DNA from: Antedon mediterranea
Lineage: Eukaryota > Echinodermata > Crinoidea > Comatulida > Antedonidae
Assembly: GCF_964355755.1 (NCBI RefSeq)
Contig: NC_092673.1
Location: 19,721,001 to 19,785,000, forward strand
Length of the DNA: 64,000 bases
Direction of reading: 5' to 3'
Of this stretch, positions 11,913-60,500 are shown in pieces. A program made the position numbers and the translations under genes. The notes beneath the pieces were generated by a model. That model saw only the letters and a program-made list of their open reading frames with translations. It was not told the origin of the DNA and did not search any database. Numbering within the stretch: position 1 is the first letter of the stretch; each line of letters opens with the position of its first letter.

Positions 11913-12646
11913 TTTTTACCTGCAGTTATTCAAATTATAAAATAGACATGACATACATTAATATAACAAGCCTATATAATATAATTCAAAGCCGGAACTT
12001 TAATGTTCTTGCATCTGGCCCAACAATGGCCAGGACAGGAGGTGGCTAGGGGAGCTCGAGTGGCATAGATATATACATTTTTCGTATGATTGAAATAAAG
12101 AAACAAACAGAGGACTATAAAGTAGAAGGACGTATAAAATGAGGCCCCTTCTGCTTAGTGTAAGTGTCCGAGTACATTTCTCACGTACCGATTAGAAAAA
12201 AAAAAGTTTTTGTCTACGTTAGGTTCCGATGTTGTGCTGTCAGAATTTACCATGGGATCTTCCTCTGTGGAAAGATGATCATTCAACGTTTTGACTTCAT
12301 CGGAGCATGTTTATTTATAACAAATTGATAATCGAACTAATGATACGTTTGACTTACCTTGGTTGTTATACGGATTACAGACTATTCTAATTAAAAAAAA
12401 GTCGTCATTTTTAATGACAACGCTAATGAAACAAGGAAATAAGTGATTGGCTGGTTCATTGCTATACTTGAGTTAAAAGGCCTTGGCTTAATTTAAAATC
12501 ATATCGTACTCTCGGGGATACGTTCTTATTAAATGATCGAACTAACGTATCTCACCTTTTGTACGTTCCTGGCGGTTTACGGTACTGTATTTAGATGTTG
12601 TCTCTATCGACTACACAGCAGATAATACCAAACTGACTTCTAGACA
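11913..12646. other. Upstream region of the class C GPCR
   Basis: No gene. This would hold the promoter and 5' untranslated region of the receptor starting at 12647. I cannot identify a core promoter element with confidence. Confidence 0.35.
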
Positions 12647-15600
12647 ATGTATTCCATATACATGTATCAATACTTTGTAATCGTAATATCGGCAGTGTAT
12701 GCAGATGATACTTATCTTCTCCAGACAACAGCGCCTCAGACACCCGCCGAAAACTGCCAAACGATGTCTGGTAACATTTACATCGGTGGTCTTGTTAATA
12801 TCCATCGTGTCAGCGAGGTAATAGACGATAGCTTGACAGAAGGACCAATTAAAGAAAAATGCTCAGAACCATACGATAACGGAATATACACTTCCTTGTC
12901 CATCATCCACGCTATTGAAGAAATAAATTCTCGCACGTACTTAGATTTGAAAAATGTAACTCTTGGATACGTGTTGGCGGATAGCTGTCGTTCAAGAACT
13001 GGTGCCCTTCGAGGGACGATTCAACTCTCCAGTGGTACATGCGGTCCTGAAGAAGCTCCTATTGCAGTCGTTGCTGATACTTTCTCCGGTTCTCTTAGTC
13101 CCGTGGCTCATTACTTACAGCTTACGACAACCCCACTTATTGCCGTATTTTCTACAAGTGTTGAATTCACTAACATGGAGTTTTATCCGACCTTTTTTCG
13201 AACTGTGCCGAACGACGACCACCAGTCTGAAGCATTGGTTCACATTGTCGACAGTTTTAATTGGAAGTGGGTGGGTGCTATTGCCACCGATGAAAACTAT
13301 GGTCACTACGGTGTTAGCCACTTTAAGGAAATTGCTATGAAAAGAGGAATATGCCTTGCTTTTGAATCCTACGTGCCAACATTTATAGATTCGAATAGCG
13401 TTTCTGATGTTGTCGATTTAATAATGAAATATCCTAAGGTTAAAGTTATTATAACTTTTATTAGTAGCGGTTACGAAGTGTTAAAGGTACTGGAGGAATG
13501 TGACAAAAAGAACATTGACAGTAAGTGTTTATTATATTTACTAGAATATTTACTCGCTTTGCCCACGGACCACCTAGGCCGTGCCCTCTCGAAAGAGAAA
13601 CCATTTTAAAATATATTCTTTATCCATTTAGTTACGAAATAATAATTGTTTTATGTATGTAATAATATACCACTAAACACAGTGTCACAAGATGAGTCCA
13701 AATGTTTGAGTCAAATTTACACAAATAGTCGATTGAAATAGTAAAGTACAAGTAACGATACACCACTATGACGTTTATATTTTATGTAATTCCAGTTTTA
13801 ATTAATACAAACGTTGAGAAGCAACTGTCAGTAATAATTTATTTGTATGTGTTTATATAATGTAAAACAGTTTGTGTAAAACACCTCTATTGGGGACAAA
13901 TCGTAAATTCGCTTCAATCGTCAATAAATTATCTAAATAAATCTAACTAAATTAGTAGGCCTAATGGTTTTCAATTGTTTCTTAGAGCCAATTTTATTTT
14001 TTTTTTTTTACATACTATGTGTTTACATTTACATATTTTGTGTAATTGCGATAATTTTGTTTAATGATGACCATTACTTTACTTGTCTTTTGAATGTATA
14101 TTGTTTCTTACCATGTAATTCAGCAGATTTGCTGAAAATTGGTTTGATTTTTAATAAAAAAAAAATTTATACTTAAGTGGGTTCCTACCCACCAACGTTG
14201 TTCTGCGTTAGGGTATGTGATCCTTCGTAGGCTAATGTAGGCCTATCCCAATTTGTTTAGTATCTTAATTAGAGCCAGTTCATACGGTACTTAGTTATTT
14301 ACAAGAGTAAGTTGGTTCCTACGCACCAAAGGTTGCGGTAACTGCTCTCAAGAAAGCAACTAACTCGGGTATATAACTATGTAACCCTTAGAAAGTTATG
14401 TGATACAGCGGTTTTGGTAAAAGCATTGAGAAAAATGTTACGCGCGATTTACTGAAATGTCCTAATACGAATACGAATAAAGCCCTGAATACGTCCTATA
14501 AAAACCTACGTCCTTACGTAAAGGAATACAATGTCATACGCTCTTTCAATTGCCCAAATGGCCCTCGAATACAGAACTTTGACGTTAATAACTGGAAATG
14601 GTAAAGATGAACACAGAGTGAATGAATACAGCGAATAAATAAACTTTAGACTTGAATTGTCTGTATCGCATGGTTACTGGCCTGCCACATTCCTGTCTCA
14701 TTATTTTAAAATATGATAGAGTGGTATCTTCATATTTATAAAATTCTCATCAAACATGGATTGTTTTCTTACAACAACGTCTTGCAATTAAGGAATATTA
14801 TATATTATATGTATTTGTTGTTCACTACTCATACATCTACTGGTATTATTAGCATTATATATTTTAACTGATCAATTGAAATATTAAGATGTACTGGCTT
14901 TACAACGTTACTAATGACATTGAGGGGGGAAGGTGTTGTGGGTGGTGATTGAACTGCAATAATAAAGTTGATTGTACAGATATAGACGGCGACTGAAACT
15001 GTCAGCTCATTTCTGTTTAAAAATACTTATATCCGCAGTATATCTGCAGTCACAGATTTTTAAAATCGATCGATGAGTGTACTTTCCTTTGTTATTACGC
15101 CTGCGGGAATAGACGCTTGTGAAAGAGCGATTGGAATGTTCCATTTATTGCAAATCAATACATTTGTATAAACGTATATCAAATCTATCAAAACAGTATT
15201 TTTCTATTCTTCAACATTATGATGCTGTACTAGAGCTGTGGATTTTCAAATATTAAAAACAATTATCGTAGAAGGAGATAGGTAAATGCGAAGAATCCTC
15301 GTATTATTGTGTGCGGGTATTTTTCAAGATGGACATCCATTAGACCGTGTATACCACGATCGGAAAATCGTTGAACCTAAATTCGTTTTAGTTGTCAATA
15401 ACTAATTCTAACTCAATTTAATTAGTAAATAGAGTTACATCAGGTGGTTAAAATCAGTACCCGAACCAACTTTATATACCATCGAGTACGGTAAACATCT
15501 AGAAGTAACGCGCGATTTACCGAATTTTGCTCTAACGTAAATTTATATATAGATAAATACCATAAATAAAGTAATTATTTACAGAATAAAAAATAGAGAA

Positions 15601-18600
15601 AATATGAACCGAAGCGAGGCGATAATTCATCCTTCAAACAAAAAAGAAAAGAATTATGTATATGAATTATCATATACAGTCACGTCACCGGTACATTTCA
15701 TCATCATCATTTTATATAAATCGTTATTTTAATTTTGTAAAGATGTTTTTAATTTCGATTGATGCATTTTGACATTTATAATAACCTTGGGTTTTAAGCT
15801 TTCACAATATCTATGATTAAAAGATTTCTATGATTTGCAAAAAACTATAAGGTAGATTGATTTACAACATAGTTAAAAAGTACATTATTATTGTATTTAA
15901 TGATTTACAAAAAATTCAATTTCAAATTCAAATAAAAAAAAAATCATTATTATTTCCTTGAGAAAAGACCAAAATACCTCTGATTTGATGGATTTCTTTC
16001 CATTTGTCGATAACTTAAATTTCTCCCTGAAATTGTTTTTGTTTATTAGGCCTATGCCATTTTAATGTTAAATAATAGTTGTTCACTTCTACAAAAAATT
16101 GGATCGAAAAGAAAAATATTTACATAAAAAACTGTCAAATTTTCTGTCAGGTGTTTGGTCTTTATATAAGTAAAATCATTATTTTTGTTTTGGTTTTTAT
16201 TATGTGACATTAAAATGGCATTCAACAAAATCAATTTTTTTTTAGGGGGCAATATATCTTGAAAGCCCGTAGTCTCTTAGACATTATGATAGACTATTCA
16301 GAAAAATATATAATGAATAGGCACAATTCCAAAAGAAATAATCGGCTCTCTGTCCAGTTTGTAAATCATGGGAGGTGGTGTTCATTGTGATCTATATAAA
16401 TCAATCCAATGTATTTTTGTTTCTATTAGAAAAGGTTTGGATAGGAACAGATGCTTGGATAATTTCACGAATATTTGCTTCAAATGTATTTTACAATGTC
16501 ATTGATGCGGTGATTGGTACCTCTATTGAAGAAGTTCGTAATGAAGATTTCTGGAACTATTTCTTATCTCGTAAACCCAACAACACTAATCTGAATTCTT
16601 GGTTTATTGAATATTGGGAGAAAATATTTTCTTGCCAGTTGTTTAACTATAAAGAGAACAACGAAACGGAGGTGAATCAAGAATGTTGGTCGCATTCACT
16701 AGAAGAAAAGGCTGATGAATTCAGAACATTCATTGATTTTACAACGTATAATGCCGTGTATGCTATTGGTTATGCCATTTATGACATCATTGAATGCAGG
16801 CCTCCTAATGGACTGTTGCAGGATGGACGTTGTCCTGACATAAACAACCTTGAACCGTGGGCACTAATGCAGTATCTTAGAAACGTGAACTTTACTCATC
16901 CTATTATTAAAGATCGTCAATTTATGTTTGATGACAATTATGAAGTTTTAGCTCGCTACACGGTTTACTACTGGAAACGTACGTCAGAAAATACCGTTAA
17001 AGTTGAAGTAATTGGAAGTTATGACCAGTCAAGTTATCCACACTTGGAAATGAACACGTCAACAATATTATGGAATGGAGGAAATTTGACGAAGGTATAC
17101 CACTTTCCTTGTAAAAAATGTTCTATAAAAAGTTTTCTCTCATGTATCAGGCACTTATGTTTATATTTAATTTTAAAGATTCCAATGTCGGTTTGTAGCT
17201 TTCCATGTCAGCCAGGTAGCAGAAAGGCGATTGATGCGAGTAAGCCTAGTTGCTGCTTTGATTGCTTCAAATGTTCCGATGGTACAATTTCGACTACTCA
17301 AGGTACGGTGATGGTATACATACTTTCAATCAGTATTTTAACAATTATTCATTTTTTATATTTCTAAAAATGTTCTTATTTCCATTTATGTGACGTCAAT
17401 ATTAATTTTCATTGTATTGTCCTCCTGAAAAATGTAAAAAAAATTTGTTGTAATTTTAATGTCAGATAATATTTATCCGCACCACGTGATATCCACCACA
17501 AAATTGGATTGAAAAAAAATGATTCAAATTGGTTGCAAGCCAATGAGTTTTTGGTTGAATTTCACCATTGATTTGGTCATTTTAGAAATGAAAACATTAA
17601 TTTTCCCGTTTTTTTCTACGGAATTGATTGAAACTATACAAAATATGAAATATGAAATATGAAATAAGATATTGAAAGTCTAATTACATTATTCTTCAAT
17701 TTTCACATGTTTTTTTTTTTTTTGGCGGGGGAGGGGGGAGTGGGGGACAAAACATCTTTAAGTATAATTTGCTTGTCGGAAAATATTTGGATAATTAAAT
17801 AAAATTATTGTTGAAAACTTTTTGTCTAGACCAAACCAAATGCACAGCTTGCGAGGATGGTTACTTCTCAAATGAAGAAAACACCAAGTGTTTATTAAAA
17901 CCTCTAGCAGTAGTGGAATGGAGAGATCCAGTTGTAATTGGTTTCCTAATCTGGTCCGGTGTTGGCTGTATTTTCACTTTCATCACTGTCGCTATATTTT
18001 TCGTAAAACGAGAATCGGAAGTAGTAAAATATTCGTCACGTGATCTGAGTGTAATACTACAAATCGGAATCATTGCTGGTTACCTATCTTCAATATTGTT
18101 CTTAATTCCTCCTACTGACGTCATATGCCAACTGCGCATTGCGGTTCCTAGTATTATAGCTTGTCTGTTGTTGGCGGTATTTCTAATCAAGATATATATG
18201 GTTATCAAAATATTTAACCGCGGGAAAAAGGGAAAGTCAATGATAAATGTAAAAATTCGGTTTATCAAATTCCGTTTGTTGTTTGTTTTGTTAATTACCG
18301 GTTTTCAAATTTGCATAGTACTTTTATCGTATTTTACATTTTCTGTTAAGAAAGTAGAGGACATTAAATCATCTACAAAAGAAACAATAATCGAATGCAA
18401 TGTGACGATTGAAGCCTACATATCCAACGAACTATTCAACTTAATGTTGATTATCGTCTGTTTCGTGTTCGCATTTCGCGCGCGTAAAATGCCGCATAAT
18501 TACCACGAAGCACGCTTTATATCCGTCGTGATGACGTTTTGGATAATAATCTTCTTGTTATCGATCACCACTCACTTGTTCACTGTTGGCGAACTACAAT

Positions 18601-18788
18601 CTATAATTGCTGTCATGTTCGTCTTAATTCTTTACACGCTCATTCTGATCATGCTTTTTGTACCGAAATGTTACATTCTAGCAATGAATAAAAACAATAA
18701 CGCGGGAAATCCAATCAAGTCAAGTGGTTCGTGTGCCACAATATCTACTATAAGAGAGACCGAGATTCAACATTGTTCACATATTTAA
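12647..18788 (+). CDS. Class C G-protein-coupled receptor, calcium-sensing-receptor-like (complete, 4 exons)
   Basis: The exons are 12647-13520, 16430-17094, 17179-17302 and 17830-18788. All junctions are GT-AG and in phase, giving 873 residues. A signal peptide (residues 1 to about 19) precedes a Venus-flytrap ligand domain (about 35-510). There FFRTVPNDDHQSEALVHIV and DENYGHYG resemble the calcium-sensing receptor and GPRC6A more than glutamate receptors. Residues about 515-580 form the nine-cysteine domain (CSFPC, CCFDC, CTACEDGYFSNE). Seven membrane segments follow (about 590-845) with the class C landmarks FRARKMPHNYHEARF and FVPKCYILAM. The cytoplasmic tail is short. AATAAA lies at 18860-18865. 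The ligand cannot be predicted: the serine-rich binding motif of amino-acid receptors is only partly kept (FSTSVEF). Orthology to CASR itself is not claimed. Confidence 0.93.
13521..16429 (+). other. Intron 1 of the GPCR gene (2.9 kb)
   Basis: It lies between the donor GTAAGT at 13521 and the acceptor TTTCTATTAG ending at 16429. It contains TAGGCCTA words and AT-rich sequence. I see no nested gene, and short ORFs inside it have no support. Confidence 0.6.
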
Positions 18789-33546: not shown

Positions 33547-36500
33547 CTAATAGAATCGTTTGCGATTGTGTTCCTGTCTTTTCATAAATACTACAGCTCC
33601 AACTATTACGCATACAGCGATGCCGAGTAGTATACAAAATATCATTAGAAACATTTTTTTCCAGGTTAGCGTTACATTCTTGAAAGCGCCCTTAGGATCG
33701 TCAACATGATCTGTGAAAATAAAATTTAATTTCAATATTACTTTCATTTCCAATTAACTATATACTCGTTTTTATAGGTTAATCAATAAAATGTTTAATT
33801 CCAACAAATGTGTACAGTATTGTCGAACATTAAGTAGCGAGTAAGTGGCCGAGTGGTTAAGACAGTGGAACCGTAATACATTGTCATAACATCAGCAAGG
33901 GTTCGAGGCTCTCTTGCTCCATAGTTCGGGTGGTAGAACGAGTCTTCTCGGATAAGGTCCAGTGTACACATCTAGCTCATGTGCACTTTAAAGAACCTAG
34001 TACATCTTTCAAGAAGAGTAGGGGGTTACCCCGGTGTACTAGTTCATACACAGCCACTGTCTCAAACTCCTCACAGTACTATATACTGAGCCCTCTGGAA
34101 GAAGTCTTTTGATAATTTTAAATAATTGTTAACAAACCTCTAGGTGGTGCAAAGAAATCAGCACTTGGATTTACATTTGCGTAATCATAGTCTTCTTTAG
34201 CGCCCTCTATCTCAAGATCAAACACTTTGTATGATATGATGTCATGATTATCTGCAAGGCGACAAAAGATCATGTAGAATTAATATAGCAAATGTGTGTT
34301 TTACTTTTGAAATTTAATGAATGAAAACATACTCTATTTCTCAAAAAAGAAAGTTTACAAATTTTGTTAAGTTAATAAAATATATAAAATTATTTATTTA
34401 TTTTTCACTGTACAGTCAACTCTCCTAATACTGGACTCTCTCAACTCTCTCAAAACCAGACTTTTCTCGAGGTCCAAAATTATTCTTTACTGTCATTAAC
34501 AACATATTCCAAATACCAGACTTTCAGGAAAACCAGACATATTAGGTTAGCCCAAAGGTGTCCGATATTAGGTCAGCCCACAGGTGTCTGGGATAAGGAG
34601 AGTTGACTATATTACAATACCTGCTAGTTGGCCAGTGGCAGCTGAAGCGCCAAAGTAGTAGCCAGTTGGTAAATGAATACCTGGTACATCAAGACATGGT
34701 TTCCATTCACCTTTACCATCGATGTCGGTCATTATCTAAACATAAACATTACTGTGACCTTAAAACCTTATCTAAAGCTCTGTCTACACTATCAAACTTT
34801 ATGTGACAAAAACATGTGATGTGCCCATATATGGACATAATGATGTCATATCACTACCATATTTGGGTATATCACTACCATATTTGGGTATATCACTACC
34901 ATATTTGGGTATATCACTATAATATTTAGGAATCCAAAGGCGAATCCAAAGGCAAATTACTGACAAAAATGACAATGCTGTGGGTATCAGTGGCTGGATC
35001 TCAATGGAGATACAAAAATAAAACGAAAAGCTAAATCAAAACGATAAAGTAAACAGCCAGAAAAGTTAGCAGAGCTAATATTTAGGTATATCACTACCAT
35101 ATTTGGGTATACAGGTATCACTACCATATTTGGGCAAACTAGTTTGATACTATAGTGTAGAAAGAGCTTTTTAATTGGAGTCAGTCAAATTGCAGATGGT
35201 GTGTTTGATAGGACATACCAAAAATTAAACATTAATTATTTTCATTAATGCTATGATGGATTTAAAACAATAAATGGAAACTAAAAAATATGAACATGCA
35301 AAATATGCTTAAATTACTAGTAAATAAAGCTAAGCAAACATGCAAAGAAATCATGCATTTAATACTAAAGTTTCTTTTCAATTGAAGACCAGTTTTAAAG
35401 ACATTTTACTGAGTGCCTCAATGGTTAGTAATCGGTACTGTATAGTTGGTCTTTAATTGAAAGAAAACATAGATAAATGATTATAAAGAAAAATGCAGAC
35501 TAATTAAATATAAAAGCAAGAGAAGCGCCAGTACTCACAGTCAAACGTTGCTTCGCATACCTAACAGCAATTTGTGTATTGTGATTTTTATTACGAAATG
35601 AACAAGAACAACCCGCCACCTCTGTATGAGTACCATCAGTGTCATGATCATAGTGCGTTGAACCATTATTAATCTGAGCAGATATGTAAGGATGCGGATG
35701 CTATAGAACAGAAGAAGGACACATAAAGACAGACAAATAAAGAAATGAAAAGGCGAAGTTCTTAAAACTTACAATTAAATGATCTTTGGAATATCGAATG
35801 ATAGCAAATGTATCGTCTTGTTTGTTTCTAAATGGAAAATGACAGCCACCGACTTCCGTATGGGTGCCGTCTCTGTCGTGGTCATAACTTTTTTTACCAT
35901 TATTAATTTGTACTGAAATATAAGGATGCTCATGCTAAAAAAATAAAGGCAAGACAGTTAACATGTGTAGGTATAGTATCAGTTTTAAGAACCATGTCGT
36001 TTTCACCATTCACATTTTATCCCCCTGAAAAAATATTGAAAGAAATGTTGTTGTTGAATATGCTATTTTAATTTCACATAGTAGGGTGGAGCTAAACAAA
36101 TTATTTAATAATCTCATCAACTTACATTGTGAGGACCATTGTGATTACTATATGTGTCAAAATATAATCCAAGTCCTATGTGATAATCCTTATTTCCAAA
36201 AACTGGACCTGAAAAAATATAAGACAAGACACTTAATTATGTTTGCCTCACTCCCCAGGTGTACTGTACAAATAGGCACCTGGGTGTACTGTACAAATAG
36301 GCACCTGGGTGTACTGTACAAATAGGCACCTGGGTGTACTGTACAAATAGGCACCTGGGTGTACTGTACAAATAGGCACCTGGGTGTACTGTACAAATAG
36401 GCACCTGGGTGTACTGTACAAATAGACACCTGGTAAAGGCACAACATTGCACTGATTACTAGTAACATTATGGGAGTATGTTTCCATATGTGTTTGATCC

Positions 36501-39500
36501 AAAAATGATCAGGGAAAATAATATGTACTGTACAACACTTTCACAGCATTAGACGCTTTATACATCCAGAATTATTATTTCCAGGTCTAATTAGTATTAA
36601 TGTGTGTAGTTAATATTATTCATGCATTTTTGCAGAGTATGTAAAATAAAGTGAAATCAGCTAGGATTTATTCTTTACCTAGCTGCATTCTATCCTTTGT
36701 GTACCAGATAGCGAATCCATCTCCATATAGTGTCTTGCCTTGACCATGTACTTTAAAATGTAGATGTATCTCCCAATTTGGCGATTCATTTGGCTGAAAC
36801 AGAAGATACATAGCACATTACTTTGTGAAATTTGAGAATTGTTTTAATTTCCCTTTTCCGTACTTGTAATATGTATCCAAAAAATGGCCGGGGTATTAAT
36901 GTGCAGCGTACTGAGCTTGCTTTGTATGTGCTATATAAAAATAAACCATTATTATTATTATCACTTTCGGAGACTACAACGTTTGAAACAAATTACTTAC
37001 AACTTTATTCCAGATTGCTCCTCGCTTACTCTGTCTATCCGGAGTAAGTCTGATATAGTTATTTGTTACTATTGTACTTCCAATGAAGTCCCACATTGGC
37101 ATGCTAGCTCCAGCACCTGCAATAGATCAAATTAAATATACTTGCATTTTAAAATTATTTCCATTATTATCCATTACATTAGCTAGGAAGGTAGCCGATC
37201 ACTCCAGCCGCCGTATCAGTTTAGCGCGATGTTATGCACTCCGGCCGCTATTCAATTCGACTTAGTATGGAGCGCCCATATCTACGTTTTCTATACTGTT
37301 CAGTGTTATAACAAATTCTTGGTGAATTTAAATGGAACTAGTTGAATATTTATTAGCAACAATTTTACTTGTTTCATTAACAATAACATTCAAAGAAGTT
37401 GGAACTGCTTTTTCTTTCAAACTAAACTTAACTTAATTAAATTCAATAATAAAATAATAATCGAATACCCGTCTAATTAATGCTTGAATAACAATATTTA
37501 ATTTCTTTCTATGTACATTTATTTTTATAGCTTTACATTTATTAACATTAAAAATTAGTTAAAACCCTTATTTTTATAACACTTTATCTTGCCAGTACCC
37601 ATACTTACTAATTATAGTTAATAACAATATTTACAATATTAATTAATTTATTTCAAATAATCAAATATCCGTCTAATTAATGTTACCTGGAATTGTATCA
37701 AGAATTAATATATCATTTTTGTACAGTCCAATTTACAATGATTTTATATTTTAATTTATATATGATAAAAATAATATGACATATAGGGTACATTGCAATA
37801 AATTACATTAATTAATCACATTACAATTAATATACTAGCCTATTACATTGGATAAAACACAAATTATTTTATTCTAGCATTAGACCTAATTTAAAACACT
37901 TGATGTTGTTGTGATCCTGAAAGAGAAAAAATATACTGTATGATTACAAATGTTTATTTTGATTCTCTACAAAAAACGTGTCTCGGTTGTAAAAGACTCA
38001 TTGGGCGCTCCATAGCTGCGGCCGGAATGAAGCGCGGCCAGAGTGAAGCGCGGCCGGAGTGATCTGTATTCGCTAGGAAGAGGGCTATGCTTATCTGGGA
38101 CGATTCGGCCTGGGATGATTTGGCCCACTATACTGTAGGTGGCACAATTCAGGTCCAAAATGTCCAACACACTTACGAGTACAGGAATGATGTCAACCCA
38201 GTTCTGATTGGTCGGTTAAAATGCTTACGTATAATAATTAATATAGTATAGGCCTATGTTTTATTCATTCATACAAAAATAAAACCAGATTCGACAGACG
38301 AGCTGGGTGGTGTAATGATGAGGCAACACTGCTCTAGGGGTTGTGGGATCGAATGATTATACGCGATGATTATATGCTTGGCAACATTATTTTTGTGGAA
38401 TTTTATAATAATTTTATGTGGAATTATTATTTCGACAACTTTGTTGTTTGCATCATTATCCCTGCCTGCCCTCCAGGCCCTGACCCTTCCCTAGTAGTAG
38501 TAGCTAGTACTAAGTAGACTAGCCTAGTGTAGTGCCAAGGAATACAGATCACTCCGGCCGCGCTTCACTCCGGCCGCGCTTCATTCCGGCCGCGATTCAT
38601 TCCGGCCGCAGCTATGGAGCGCCCAATGAGTCTTTTACAACCGAGACACGTTTTTTGTAGAGAATCAAAATAAACATTTGTAATCATACAGTATATTTTT
38701 TCTCTTTCAGGATCACAACAACATCACAAGTGTTTTAAATTAGGTCTAATGCTAAAACAAAATATTTTATGTGTTTTATCCAATGTAATAGGCTAGTGTA
38801 TTAATTGTAATGTGATTAATGAATGTAATTTATTGCAATGTACCCTATATGTCATATTATTTTTATCATATATAAATTAAAATATAAAATCATTGTAAAT
38901 TGGACTGTACAAAAATGATATACAGTATTAATTCTTGATACAATTCCAGGTAACATTAATTATACGGATATTTGATTATTTGAAATAAATTAATTAATAT
39001 TGTAAATATTGTTATTAACTATAACAAACATCAATAATAATTGATTATTTGAAATAAATTAATTAATATTTTACATATTGTTATTAACTATAATTAGTAA
39101 GTATGGGTACTGGCAAGATAAAGTGTTATAAAAATAAGGGTTTTAACTAATTTTTAATGTTAATAAATGTAAAGCTACAGTATAAAAATAAATGTACATA
39201 GAAAGAAATTAAATATTGTTATTCAAGCATTAATTAGACGGGTATTTGATTATTATTGAATTTAATTAAGTTAAGTTTAGTTTGAAAGAAAAAGCAGTTC
39301 CAACTTCTTTGAATGTTATTGTTAATGAAAAAATTAAAATTTTTGCTAATAAATATTCAACTAGTTCCATTTAAATTCACCAAGAATTTGTTATAACACT
39401 GAACAGTATAGAAAACGTAGATATGGGCGCTCCATACTAACGGCCCCTTTGCACAAGTTGTCGAATTGAATAGCGGGCCGGTTTACATATTGTTATTAAC

Positions 39501-40308
39501 TATAATTAGTAAGTATGGGTACTGGCAAGATAAAGTGTTATAAAAATAAGGGTTTTAACTAATTTTTAATGTTAATAAATGTAAAGCTACAGTATAAAAA
39601 TAAATGTACATAGAAAGAAATTAAATATTGTTATTCAAGCATTAATTAGACGGGTATTTGATTATTATTGAATTTAATTAAGTTAAGTTTAGTTTGAAAG
39701 AAAAAGCAGTTCCAACTTCTTTGAATGTTATTGTTAATGAAAAAATTAAAATTTTTGCTAATAAATATTCAACTAGTTCCATTTAAATTCACCAAGAATT
39801 TGTTATAACACTGAACAGTATAGAAAACGTAGATATGGGCGCTCCATACTAACGGCCCCTTTGCACAAGTTGTCGAATTGAATAGCGGGCCGGAGTCGAG
39901 TGCATAACATCGCGCTAAACTGATACGGCGGCCGGAGTGATCGGCTACCGTGCCAAGTAATACTTGCTAAACTAGCCTAGGCCATACTCCATATAAATCT
40001 CTCTCTTCCAAGTTTGGAAAAAAGGCTCATCTATGCTTATAAAATAAAATGCATATCAAAGCCGATAAATATAAATGGGCCGAATCGTCTCAGGGCCGAA
40101 ATGTCCCGGGTCAATACAGCAGCATCTCGCCTTAACTTTTCTAACGAGCGTAAACGGTCTCGGCCTAGCCAAAATGCTTTACTTTCTTACCTGTATAGGG
40201 GCGCATCAAACTGTGTTCTTTTCTCAAATAATCACTTGCCGTTTTTCTGTTTGCATTTACAAAACAGCTTAAAAACAAAGTAGTTACAATAGCATGAATT
40301 AACGCCAT
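33547..40308 (-). CDS. LMAN2: Vesicular integral membrane protein VIP36 (L-type lectin)
   Basis: Exons in transcript order are 40308-40191, 37116-37001, 36793-36679, 36208-36126, then one of two alternative exons (35934-35773 or 35700-35539), 34735-34621, 34251-34138 and 33710-33547. With one alternative exon the frame gives 328 residues. Signal peptide MALIHAIVTTLFLSC; lectin domain with EHSLMRPYTG, WDFIGSTIV, HLHFKVHGQG, GDGFAIWYTKDR, FDTYSN, and GYYFGASAATGQLADNHDI; membrane span FLMIFCILLGIAVCVIVG; tail KRQEHNRKRFY. VIP36 binds high-mannose glycans on glycoproteins and cycles between ER, cis-Golgi and later secretory compartments. Calcium and mannose ligands (the D, Y and N of DTYSN, and the H and D of the YDH loop) are present. 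Intron 1 is enlarged by transposons. Confidence 0.95.
33838..34110 (+). mobile_element. tRNA-derived SINE (family 1), plus strand, full head
   Basis: The head has A-box GTGGCCGAGTGGTTAAGAC and B-box GGGTTCGAGGCTC. The body runs through 'ggtagaacgagtcttctcgg', 'ggtccagtgtacaca', 'aaagaacctagtacatc' and 'gggggttaccccggtgtact'. It is the best preserved of three copies and lies in the last intron of LMAN2. Confidence 0.85.
34410..34605. repeat. Dispersed repeat with inverted ends (TCAACTCTCCT)
   Basis: It begins 'agtcaactctcctaata' and ends 'ataaggagagttgacta', which are inverted copies, with internal 'accagacttt' repeats. About 195 bp, non-coding, in an LMAN2 intron. Probably a MITE; no second copy is seen. 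Confidence 0.6.
34776..35168. mobile_element. Harbinger-like MITE, copy 4, enlarged
   Basis: The ends are AGCTCTGTCTACACTATC and 'tatagtgtagaaagagct'. Internally 'tatcactaccatatttgggta' is repeated several times, and a separate 145-bp element is inserted at 34931-35075. It lies in the LMAN2 intron between the alternative exon pair and the following exon. Confidence 0.8.
34931..35075. mobile_element. 145-bp inserted element carrying one copy of a 48-bp unit
   Basis: The element is flanked by an 11-bp direct duplication (TAATATTTAGG at 34920-34930 and 35076-35086). Inside are 'aaggcaaattactga', one copy of the unit 'atgacaatgctgtgggtatc' to 'caatggagatacaaa', then 'cagccagaaaagttagcaga'. Both flanks and the unit match the LETM1 intron array at 46729-48000, where the unit is amplified. 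No coding capacity. Confidence 0.8.
35539..35700 (-). CDS. LMAN2: LMAN2 alternative exon A (54 codons, carbohydrate-recognition loop)
   Basis: The exon encodes 54 residues in phase 0 at both ends, starting HPHPYISAQINNG and containing YDHDTDGTHTEVAGCSCSF. It lies between acceptor TCTATAG and donor GTGAGT. It is homologous to exon B 72 nt upstream in the transcript (33 of 54 residues identical by my alignment). It keeps the His and Asp of the ligand loop and the conserved Cys, with one extra Cys. Which of the two is used cannot be told from genomic sequence alone. Confidence 0.9.
35773..35934 (-). CDS. LMAN2: LMAN2 alternative exon B (54 codons, carbohydrate-recognition loop)
   Basis: Phase 0 at both ends, exactly 162 nt like exon A. 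It starts HEHPYISVQINNG and contains YDHDRDGTHTEVGGCHFPF. The acceptor follows a T-run and ends TTTAG; the donor is GTAAGT. The 72-nt intron separating it from exon A is short for the gene. Ligand-loop residues are conserved while the last third (after FRNK) differs most from exon A. Confidence 0.9.
36258..36433. repeat. Minisatellite, 25-bp unit, about seven copies
   Basis: The unit GTGTACTGTACAAATAGGCA plus CCTGG repeats almost perfectly. It lies in the LMAN2 intron just upstream of the exon at 36208. It opens ORFs on the minus strand that are artefacts. Confidence 0.95.
37190..38071 (-). mobile_element. DNA transposon copy 1 with 8-bp target duplication
   Basis: The ends are GGTAGCCGATCACTCC and GGAGTGATCTGTATTC, inverted around the core GATCACTCC. 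Subterminal 'ccggccgcgcttca'-type repeats lie at the 38-kb end. GCTAGGAA occurs immediately outside both ends. About 880 bp, no ORF. It is nearly identical, in opposite orientation, to the element at 38540-39952. The 8-bp duplication is as seen in hAT-type insertions, though the termini are not typical of hAT. Confidence 0.75.
38072..38539. other. Spacer between two opposite transposon copies
   Basis: About 470 bp of single-copy-looking sequence with no exon; part of LMAN2 intron 1. It contains short pieces of both target duplications at its edges. Confidence 0.5.
38540..39952 (+). mobile_element. DNA transposon copy 2, opposite orientation, with internal 412-bp duplication
   Basis: It starts GAATACAGATCACTCC and ends GGAGTGATCGGCTACC, with GTGCCAAG directly outside both ends. 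It is the reverse complement of the 37190-38071 element over most of its length. It additionally has two near-identical tandem blocks (39071-39482 and 39483-39894). No ORF. It lies in LMAN2 intron 1 and ends about 240 bp from the coding part of exon 1. Confidence 0.8.
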
Positions 40309-41273: not shown

Positions 41274-52548
<11,275 letters not shown>

Positions 52549-57500: not shown

Positions 57501-60500
57501 GTAATTGTTAATTGTATTATTACTCATTGATGCTAGAGTTAAAAAGTTTAAAGTACATGGGCTTGTAAATAAAGTTAACTATACAAAACAAACAAGGCTA
57601 AACGATGTCTTTGTTGACTCATGATAGTAATAGCTAATGGTATTTACATACAGCACCTATTGAGTATGCCATTATCAATATAGCTTACATAACGCATGTT
57701 GATACTGTTGCTAGTAGCACTTAATATAAAAACATACATTTGGGGACAGATAAAGGCCAACAGAACTTTATATAACAACATTTCTTATACCCAGTTAGAG
57801 GGAAGGATATACTGTAGCTCAAATTATTAATATACCAGGTGTACTACAAGTTAAAAAAACTAGTGCAGAGATGGCTACCATTACATCTTATTTAATATGC
57901 TAGTAAATATATGCTATATACCGATTAATTTGAATAATAATTTATTTTTAAGGAGGGTTTTTAGAGGGGCATTTACCATTTACCATTTACTTTTTGTACC
58001 TGTAATATGGTAACATGTATAATCAAATAAATTTTCCCTAAATATGAAAAAAATACAACACAATTAATATCAAGAAGTGATAAAATACAGTAAAATTTCT
58101 ATCAAAATGCTTAGTCAATTGTAGATCATAAGTCAATGAATTTTACTAAAAATTTAAATGCTGTAATAATTGTGTGTATACTGTTTTATTGAGTGGGGCA
58201 TTTATTCAAATGATATTTTATACAGTAGAACACGTCCTCTCTGGGACACTTGCACATGAAACTAACAAAGGGCTATAAATGTTTCAAACACTATGGCCAA
58301 CCTCTATTGAGGGGACACTTTTGTGGAGTCCTGAAGGTGTCCCTTAACAGGGGTTCTACTGCATATGTAAATAGGATAATATTCAGGCCAGCAAACTTTC
58401 ACTATTATGGAAAAAAATAATGGTAAGTGATTGTTGGTTCATTCAACCATGGAGGTACCTCCATGATTCAACTTTGAAACAGAAAGCATACTATTATGTA
58501 TGACATACAATACATACCTTTGGCAGCCAGACACATTGCAATATGACCCAATTCTACATGGTTTACACTCTGTCTTTCCTAATTCATTCTGGTAATAACC
58601 ACTACTGCATGAGGTACAATTGATTGTTGCATATTCTTCACTGTAATACCCTGTAAATAACCAAATATAAACACTTTTACATAGAAAAAAAAGACAAAAA
58701 TGATGCAATAAATTTTGATAAAAATGAAATTCAACGGAAAAACAACTTCGAAATCGAAACTTCAGCTGACAAATGATACAGAAAAAAACAATTTAAAATT
58801 GTGCAACATATTAACTATTATACCATTTGTTTTTATAATATTATTCATTTTTTTCCTGTCTTTTTGAAGGTTGAACTTCTATTGTTCTGAAATTAAACAT
58901 TAACTGTTTATGAGTTAACATATGTTTTTCTTAAATGCATAAGGTCACATTTTGGAAAGAGAATATCATGAGTTTTGGCATTGTTTTGAATAGTCTTACT
59001 TGAAAAACTGTTCTTACCCTGACAGGCCCCTTATTTGAAAAACTGTCCTTACCCTGGCAGGCCCCTTATTTTATTCAGGGAAGAGTGAAATACACTCTTC
59101 ACTGTTTAATTATACGTTTCCTTAGCTCTGTCTGCACTATCAAACTTGATGTGAGAAAAAAATGTGATGTGCCCAAATATAGTAGTAATGTGCCCAAATA
59201 TGGTAGTGATATAATATCATCATGCCCATATATGAGCACATCACATTTTTTTGTCACATATAATTTGATGGCGTATACATAGCTTAATACCTACCATAAA
59301 AGCACGGAAGACATGTTTTGCTGGCAGTTTTATTAGCATAAAAACCAGGAGCGCATTCTTTACATGTTTCACTACCTTGTCTGTGTACAAAATATTGAGA
59401 CATATATATTCTAATTAACAACATAATGCTAATATTTTCTTATATGTTAATTCAGTAATTCATATCAGGCCTAGGGGTGGGTCCCGGATTTTGATCTGCC
59501 AAGACCTTAGGTATTTGAGCCACAGCCACCAAGGTCCCACTCCTCCCCCTGCCACCCTCCTATATGGTGGGGCCAGTGCCAAACCTAATTTAGGTAAATG
59601 GCATCCCCTCGCACATAAAATTCGTGATAAATGCCACTTCCCACTAAATTTGTTGGCCCAGAAATTACAATTCAATGTATCATCCAGCAATCAGCAAAAT
59701 GATTATACTTTTTCTGCCGTTAAACACACTAGTGACATAACATTTTTGCATATGTTAGAGATGTGCATGTTCTTTGTGAATGGTTGATGGTTTTCCACAC
59801 AGAGTCAACAGTTTTTTGTTATACATTCAATGCGTAGTCATGATTTTATATTAAAAAAAAGAGAGGCTTAAAAGAAAAGGCTGTTGAATTTTAGTGGCTG
59901 CTACGGCCTGTCCGCACATGAGAGGACAGTTACAGACCACCATTAACAAACAAATTGTTGTATTTGTTGTTCCATTTGCATTTGTTAGTTGAATAGAATG
60001 GACAGAATGTCTCTCCCACGGCCCCCCCCCCCCCTCCTCAGATATGAACAGAATAACTACTAATCGCTTTAAATACTCACTCGATGCTTGAATGACCCAA
60101 GTTACAGGGGTTACAGTCAGTTTGTCCCGTTTCATTTTGAAAGAATCCTAGCCCACATAACGTGCAATGCTCACTTCCTGTTTCATTGCTATAAGATCCT
60201 GCATGACATTCCATACAATGCTTAGTCTTTTCTGTATCAGCATAGTGACCCTTACCACACAGTATACAGGATGTTTTACCAGAAGCGGGTTGCTCATGGC
60301 CTTTTGGGCAATTTATGCAAGTGACTGTAGAAGTGGCATTTGTGAATGTGCCAGGGTCACAGGCCAAGCATTCATGAAGACCCTTCTGATTAGCATAATA
60401 TCCAGGTGTGCAATCAGAGCAGTTGGCACTACCTGTAACACTGTGACAAAAAAAAGGATCTTTTTAAATTTGTAATTCATTATCAGCTTAATAGAATTTG

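Follow-up and report, generated by a model that had tools for sequence, protein, structure and literature searches.

Exon duplication is known as a way of diversification for ion channels, myosin and Dscam. In vertebrates, the cargo lectin discussed here was diversified through gene duplication, into LMAN2 and LMAN2L. In the case of duplicated exons that are spliced exclusively, the distance between splicing signals may decide the outcome. The published limit for the simultaneous binding of U1 and U2 is approximately 50 nt, and in OGDH, branch points situated 25-41 nt from the donor enforce the exclusive use of two exons (PMC7969005). In the exon 17 pair of insect Dscam, steric hindrance is combined with RNA secondary structure, as cited in two other accounts (PMC7969005; PMC6071210). 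In human data, 9% of the exclusive clusters are of the short-distance type, and there are many neighbouring exons that resemble each other without being exclusive.

While exclusive duplicated exons are well known as a kind of system, no earlier report of their occurrence in LMAN2/VIP36 was found. A literature search of partial coverage on VIP36, LMAN2 and L-type lectins yielded no relevant account of exons that are duplicated or exclusive, although the pair may have been annotated in databases, and the words "LMAN" and "lectin" are absent from the main text of two human duplicated-exon surveys. Here we describe a pair of homologous exons in the LMAN2/VIP36-type gene of the crinoid Antedon mediterranea, for which mutually exclusive splicing is the best-supported interpretation.

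Gene structure and genomic context

The stretch of DNA analysed (64,000 nucleotides, hereafter the window) carries on its minus strand a complete gene of the VIP36/LMAN2 type. It has nine coding exons, when both exons of the pair (5A and 5B) are counted, and every intron is of the GT-AG type. In window coordinates the features are as follows:

40191..40308, minus strand: LMAN2/VIP36 coding exon 1, with ATG and signal peptide, ends in phase 1; reads MALIHAIVTTLFLSC...EHSLMRPYTG
37001..37116, minus strand: LMAN2/VIP36 exon 2, where the lectin domain begins
36679..36793, minus strand: LMAN2/VIP36 exon 3
36126..36208, minus strand: LMAN2/VIP36 exon 4, with Ca2+ loop 1 (DTYSN), ends in phase 0
35773..35934, minus strand: alternative exon 5A, 162 nt, phase 0-0, the more derived copy
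35701..35772, minus strand: intron between 5A and 5B, 72 nt
35539..35700, minus strand: alternative exon 5B, 162 nt, phase 0-0, the more VIP36-like copy, with an extra Cys
34621..34735, minus strand: LMAN2/VIP36 exon 6, starts in phase 0, with the second disulfide Cys; Gln at the position equivalent to Asp261
34138..34251, minus strand: LMAN2/VIP36 exon 7
33547..33710, minus strand: LMAN2/VIP36 exon 8, with the transmembrane segment, the tail KRQEHNRKRFY and the stop

The pair had been noticed in a first-pass annotation of the window. The positions given there for the two exons (35934-35773 and 35700-35539), their equal length of 162 nt and phase 0-0, the intervening GT-AG intron of 72 nt and the flanking junctions at 36126 and 34735 all agree with the gene model, as does a recount of the identical residues.

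Inclusion of either 5A or 5B yields a product of 328 residues, in which a signal peptide precedes a single lectin domain, followed by a transmembrane segment and the tail KRQEHNRKRFY. The Pfam domain Lectin_leg-like (PF03388) is matched as one stretch, with 293.6 bits in the 5A isoform and 302.9 bits in the 5B isoform. VIP36 is the nearest solved structure (296 and 303 bits for the 5A and 5B isoforms, respectively), and ERGIC-53 scores about 150-157 bits. Judged from its sequence, the gene is the animal pro-ortholog of LMAN2/VIP36. In VIP36, the depth of the sugar pocket is set by Asp261; the corresponding residue of the present protein is Gln (ATGQLADN), neither the Asp of VIP36 nor the Gly of ERGIC-53.

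Several introns of the gene contain repeats. Intron 1 harbours a foldback element (window 37178-39961) with nested inverted arms that are 91-99% complementary over approximately 2.7 kb, and within the element a segment of 300 nt is directly duplicated (39070-39369 and 39482-39781). A 25-nt tandem repeat (GGTGTACTGTACAAATAGGCACCTG) is present in seven nearly perfect copies in intron 3 (window 36233-36457), and a 21-nt tandem repeat (ATATCACTACCATATTTGGGT) lies between 5B and exon 6 (window 34827-35156).

Directly upstream of the LMAN2 gene and on the same strand is a LETM1-type gene (window 41274-51966, minus strand), with LETM1_RBD in the open reading frame 46131-46418 and a stop near 41274; its N-terminal extent (51394-51966) is putative and has no Pfam match. 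Window 46744-48064 is occupied by an array of units of approximately 50 nt, in which several frames are open on either strand; the array probably lies within an intron of this gene. The window also contains a family-3 GPCR-type receptor with an ANF_receptor ligand-binding region (12644-18788, plus strand) and, on the minus strand (60077-60463), a cysteine-rich gene in which Ephrin_rec_like repeats occur five times.

Divergence and origin of the exon pair

Exons 5A and 5B encode versions of the same lectin segment that are identical at 33/54 residues and differ at 21/54, with 64% of the bases identical. The similarity is well beyond chance (pairwise BLASTP E = 2e-24), and each exon alone exceeds the cut-off of the Lectin_leg-like HMM. 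Identity is unevenly distributed, with 13/18, 13/18 and 7/18 residues in the consecutive thirds of the segment, so that the final third is indeed the most different, as first described. Both copies retain the Y-D-H-x-x-D motif of the glycan/Ca2+ loop and the disulfide Cys, again in line with the initial description. The extra Cys (GCSC) had been assigned to exon A; if A stands for the first exon in the transcript this is wrong, and the residue belongs to the downstream exon 5B (35539-35700).

Base differences between the exons number 16, 14 and 28 at codon positions 1, 2 and 3 (28/54 at third positions). A codon model gives an omega of approximately 0.05 and rejects omega = 1 (2dlnL 30.6), with silent sites saturated. 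Under this model, the differences between 5A and 5B show strong purifying selection. Since omega is this low, neutrality is rejected and silent sites are saturated, the pair is old, and both copies have been coding for most of their separate history.

These data bear on the possibility that a single exon is in use, probably the more VIP36-like 5B, and that its partner is a relic, either recently dead or seldom used. Indeed, 5B outscores 5A against VIP36, ERGIC-53 and the Pfam model, seven residues of dog VIP36 are shared with 5B and absent from 5A, and the pairwise selection test is blind to a very recent death of 5A. However, 5A is fully open and flanked by good splice sites, retains both the His/Asp loop and the Cys, and shares with dog VIP36 five residues that were lost in 5B; divergence of the pair under purifying selection up to saturation of the silent sites argues in the same direction. 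We consider such a relic improbable.

Ten residues are common to 5A and 5B and absent from dog VIP36. This suggests a duplication in this animal's own lineage, after the split from vertebrates, although gene conversion would give the same pattern. The only other Lectin_leg-like gene found in the genome is an LMAN1-like paralog on contig C2, in which one fused, single-copy exon corresponds to exons 4 and 5. The donor at the end of the exon-5 segment (after ...LT) is located at the same place as in the VIP36-type gene. A matching exon duplication in the LMAN1 paralog was rejected on account of the single-copy fused exon, and, of these two genes, only the VIP36-type one has the duplication. Viral and prokaryotic contigs were also searched for stray animal sequence carrying the same exon, and none was found. 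It is probable that exon 5 of the LMAN2/VIP36 pro-ortholog was duplicated in tandem long ago and that the resulting copies are used in a mutually exclusive way.

Splicing outcomes and the short intron

The two exons have the sequence features by which exclusive exons have been recognized in published work: they are adjacent internal exons of equal length and the same phase, with compatible splice sites and homologous sequences. The WebScipio relative score of the pair is 0.60 (threshold 0.15). On the Drosophila X-chromosome, only 0.56% of non-exclusive exons share such features.

All four outcomes of splicing (5A, 5B, both or neither) are in frame, and decay of frame-shifted mRNA therefore cannot enforce exclusivity. 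With both exons or with neither the Lectin_leg-like domain is split in two, whereas either exon alone leaves it unbroken; the earlier statement that inclusion of both would keep the frame but duplicate the segment holds. As the frame is always kept and these two outcomes break the lectin domain, any enforcement must come from splicing itself.

Adenines occur in the 72-nt intron only at +3, +4, +10, +11, +13, +14, +27, +35 and +49, and then no more than 4 nt from the 3' end; the last 40 nt are 80% pyrimidine. Because there is no adenine beyond +49 except in the last 4 nt, the predicted branch point for 5B would by elimination lie no more than 49 nt downstream of the 5A donor, the candidates being +27, +35, +49 or positions nearer the donor. 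U1 at the 5A donor and U2 at the 5B branch point would then be unable to assemble together on this intron, resulting in exclusivity, although a branch point at +49 would fall right at the threshold. Animals, for example flies, can splice introns of 72 nt, so that steric exclusion is put forward as a candidate mechanism.

Intron lengths in this genome were sampled from neighbouring exon matches in chaperonin and kinesin genes. The sample of about 65 introns has a median of 365, a smallest value of about 88 and none of 80 or below, the lengths having been taken from profile-match boundaries and being approximate by some tens of bases. Of the 66 values listed, one (96, the second lowest) falls within a single open frame and probably does not represent an intron. 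The 72-nt intron is unusual for this genome, since it is shorter than all the introns sampled.

Joint inclusion of 5A and 5B, either constitutively or as cassettes, would yield a lectin with a duplicated segment of 54 residues. The preserved frame and the canonical splice sites are compatible with such a product. On the other hand, the tandem form splits the lectin domain into two profile stretches, and solved VIP36 and ERGIC-53 carry the segment once, as had been noted for VIP36. As the exon contributes a Ca2+ loop and one of the two cysteines of a disulfide, the beta-sandwich would have to accommodate a second copy of it. In addition, the intron between the exons is below every intron sampled from the genome. 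We therefore regard a tandem lectin as quite improbable. Mutually exclusive splicing of 5A and 5B is the best reading, and a strongly favoured one: each mature mRNA would take up either 5A or 5B, giving rise to two full-length type-I membrane lectins of 328 residues.

A candidate helix at the 5A donor

A second possible determinant of exon choice consists of two complementary arms:

35981..35992, minus strand: upstream arm GTTCTTAAAACT, in the intron upstream of 5A; candidate loop-out helix, from one genome
35758..35769, minus strand: downstream arm AGTTTTAAGAAC, at +4 to +15 of the 5A donor

The arms GTTCTTAAAACT and AGTTTTAAGAAC are perfectly complementary over 12 bp. Among equal-length control segments from the window, 1/660 forms a helix this long with the 5A donor region, a figure to be read with the fact that the helix was found after examining eight segment pairs and was seen in one genome, without cross-species covariation. 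The other donors of the LMAN2 gene form helices of at most 8 bp. The duplex energy of the whole intron is -35.4 versus -22.1 +/- 4.3 for shuffles, and 3% of sliding segments reach -35.4. The 12-bp helix is a candidate for a second lock and is treated here as a lead. Through this pairing with the upstream intron, the 5A donor would be masked and 5A might be looped out, shifting the choice toward 5B. A docking/selector system with the dock in the downstream intron was rejected, as the pairing (iAB x iB6, i45 x iB6) was not beyond chance.

Such a helix would also suit exons that are alternative without being strictly exclusive, that is, tissue-regulated cassettes with some forms including both and some skipping both, as it would act as a switch for skipping 5A and not as a strict either/or lock. 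With all four outcomes in frame, nonsense-mediated decay would remove no errors. However, skipping both exons loses a Ca2+ loop and splits the domain, and the short intron disfavours joint inclusion; we hold loosely regulated cassettes of this sort to be highly improbable. Within mutually exclusive splicing, a doubly locked switch may be put forward tentatively and with considerable doubt, in which the short intron would enforce one of the two exons and the helix would set which one, so that tissues or stages could exchange a non-sugar face of VIP36, and its protein partners or cargo along with it.

Possible consequences for the lectin

In ERGIC-53 the second Ca2+-binding loop comprises residues 176-185. 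Its equivalent reads YDHDRDGTHT in 5A and YDHDTDGTHT in 5B, with one residue different. The sugar specificity of VIP36 has been attributed to Tyr164 and Asp261, the positions of which are in exons 4 and 6 and are thus common to both isoforms. Since the loop is nearly identical and the specificity residues are outside the alternative exon, isoforms preferring different cargo sugars are unsupported. The first-pass annotation had proposed two exclusive isoforms with different cargo preference: exclusivity stands as the best reading, on the grounds of sequence criteria, selection, domain integrity and the intron, and the different cargo preference is unsupported in the form in which it was proposed. 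The two isoforms would have the sugar/Ca2+ site in common, with their differences located in other parts of the domain, and the sugar recognised would therefore be less affected than protein partners, stability or disulfide chemistry. It is more likely that the swap would alter protein contacts, stability or, by the extra Cys in 5B, disulfide pairing.

If exclusive use is true, one gene gives two versions of a cargo lectin of the early secretory pathway. The two isoforms would represent a natural domain swap, in which the sugar site is kept constant and the last third of the segment changes, and their comparison would help to separate sugar-dependent from protein-dependent cargo selection by VIP36. 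The locus is also a compact two-exon case, where steric exclusion and a donor-hiding helix are both testable within one minigene.

Comparison with known systems

A muscle-type myosin heavy chain gene of the same genome (contig C1, approximately 19,159,546-19,159,821) contains a duplicated exon pair of 102 and 90 nt separated by an 84-nt intron; the pair extends from the end of loop 1 as far as switch 1. Exclusive cluster 3 of scallop and squid myosin is found at the same position. By this comparison, the genome has at least one further pair that is built alike and is situated where exclusive splicing is known to occur. On another contig (C3:19614624-25122537) there are more than 20 closely similar myosin-head exon matches (profile 342-408 and 564-641) over approximately 5.5 Mb, which are taken as a large myosin gene expansion or array. 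In the exclusive clusters of muscle myosin heavy chain (PMC3912159), exons of the motor domain are tandemly duplicated and used alternatively, as proposed for the lectin exons 5A and 5B; these clusters belong to another protein, and the myosin pair of Antedon is unequal (102 versus 90 nt).

Exons 4a and 4b of vertebrate OGDH (PMC7969005) are, like 5A and 5B, homologous exons separated by a short intron with a long pyrimidine tract and with branch points near the upstream donor, below approximately 50 nt. The genes are unrelated, and in OGDH the branch points were mapped experimentally and exclusivity was shown, whereas those of the 5A/5B pair are predicted. The exon 17 pair of Dscam resembles the present locus in the two-exon cluster and the short intervening intron, and its base pairing between introns has a candidate counterpart here; the gene is again unrelated, and the candidate pairing in LMAN2 is seen in one genome.

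At the level of the protein, the counterpart is vertebrate LMAN2/VIP36 (PDB 2DUO, 2DUR, 2E6V), with which the entire Antedon protein can be aligned and with which it has the Ca2+/sugar loop, the disulfide Cys and the tail conserved. Asp261 of VIP36 is replaced by Gln in both isoforms, and the solved vertebrate VIP36 has one version of the exon-5 segment where the Antedon gene has two. By exon duplication, a single gene of Antedon would thereby reach what vertebrates did by gene duplication.
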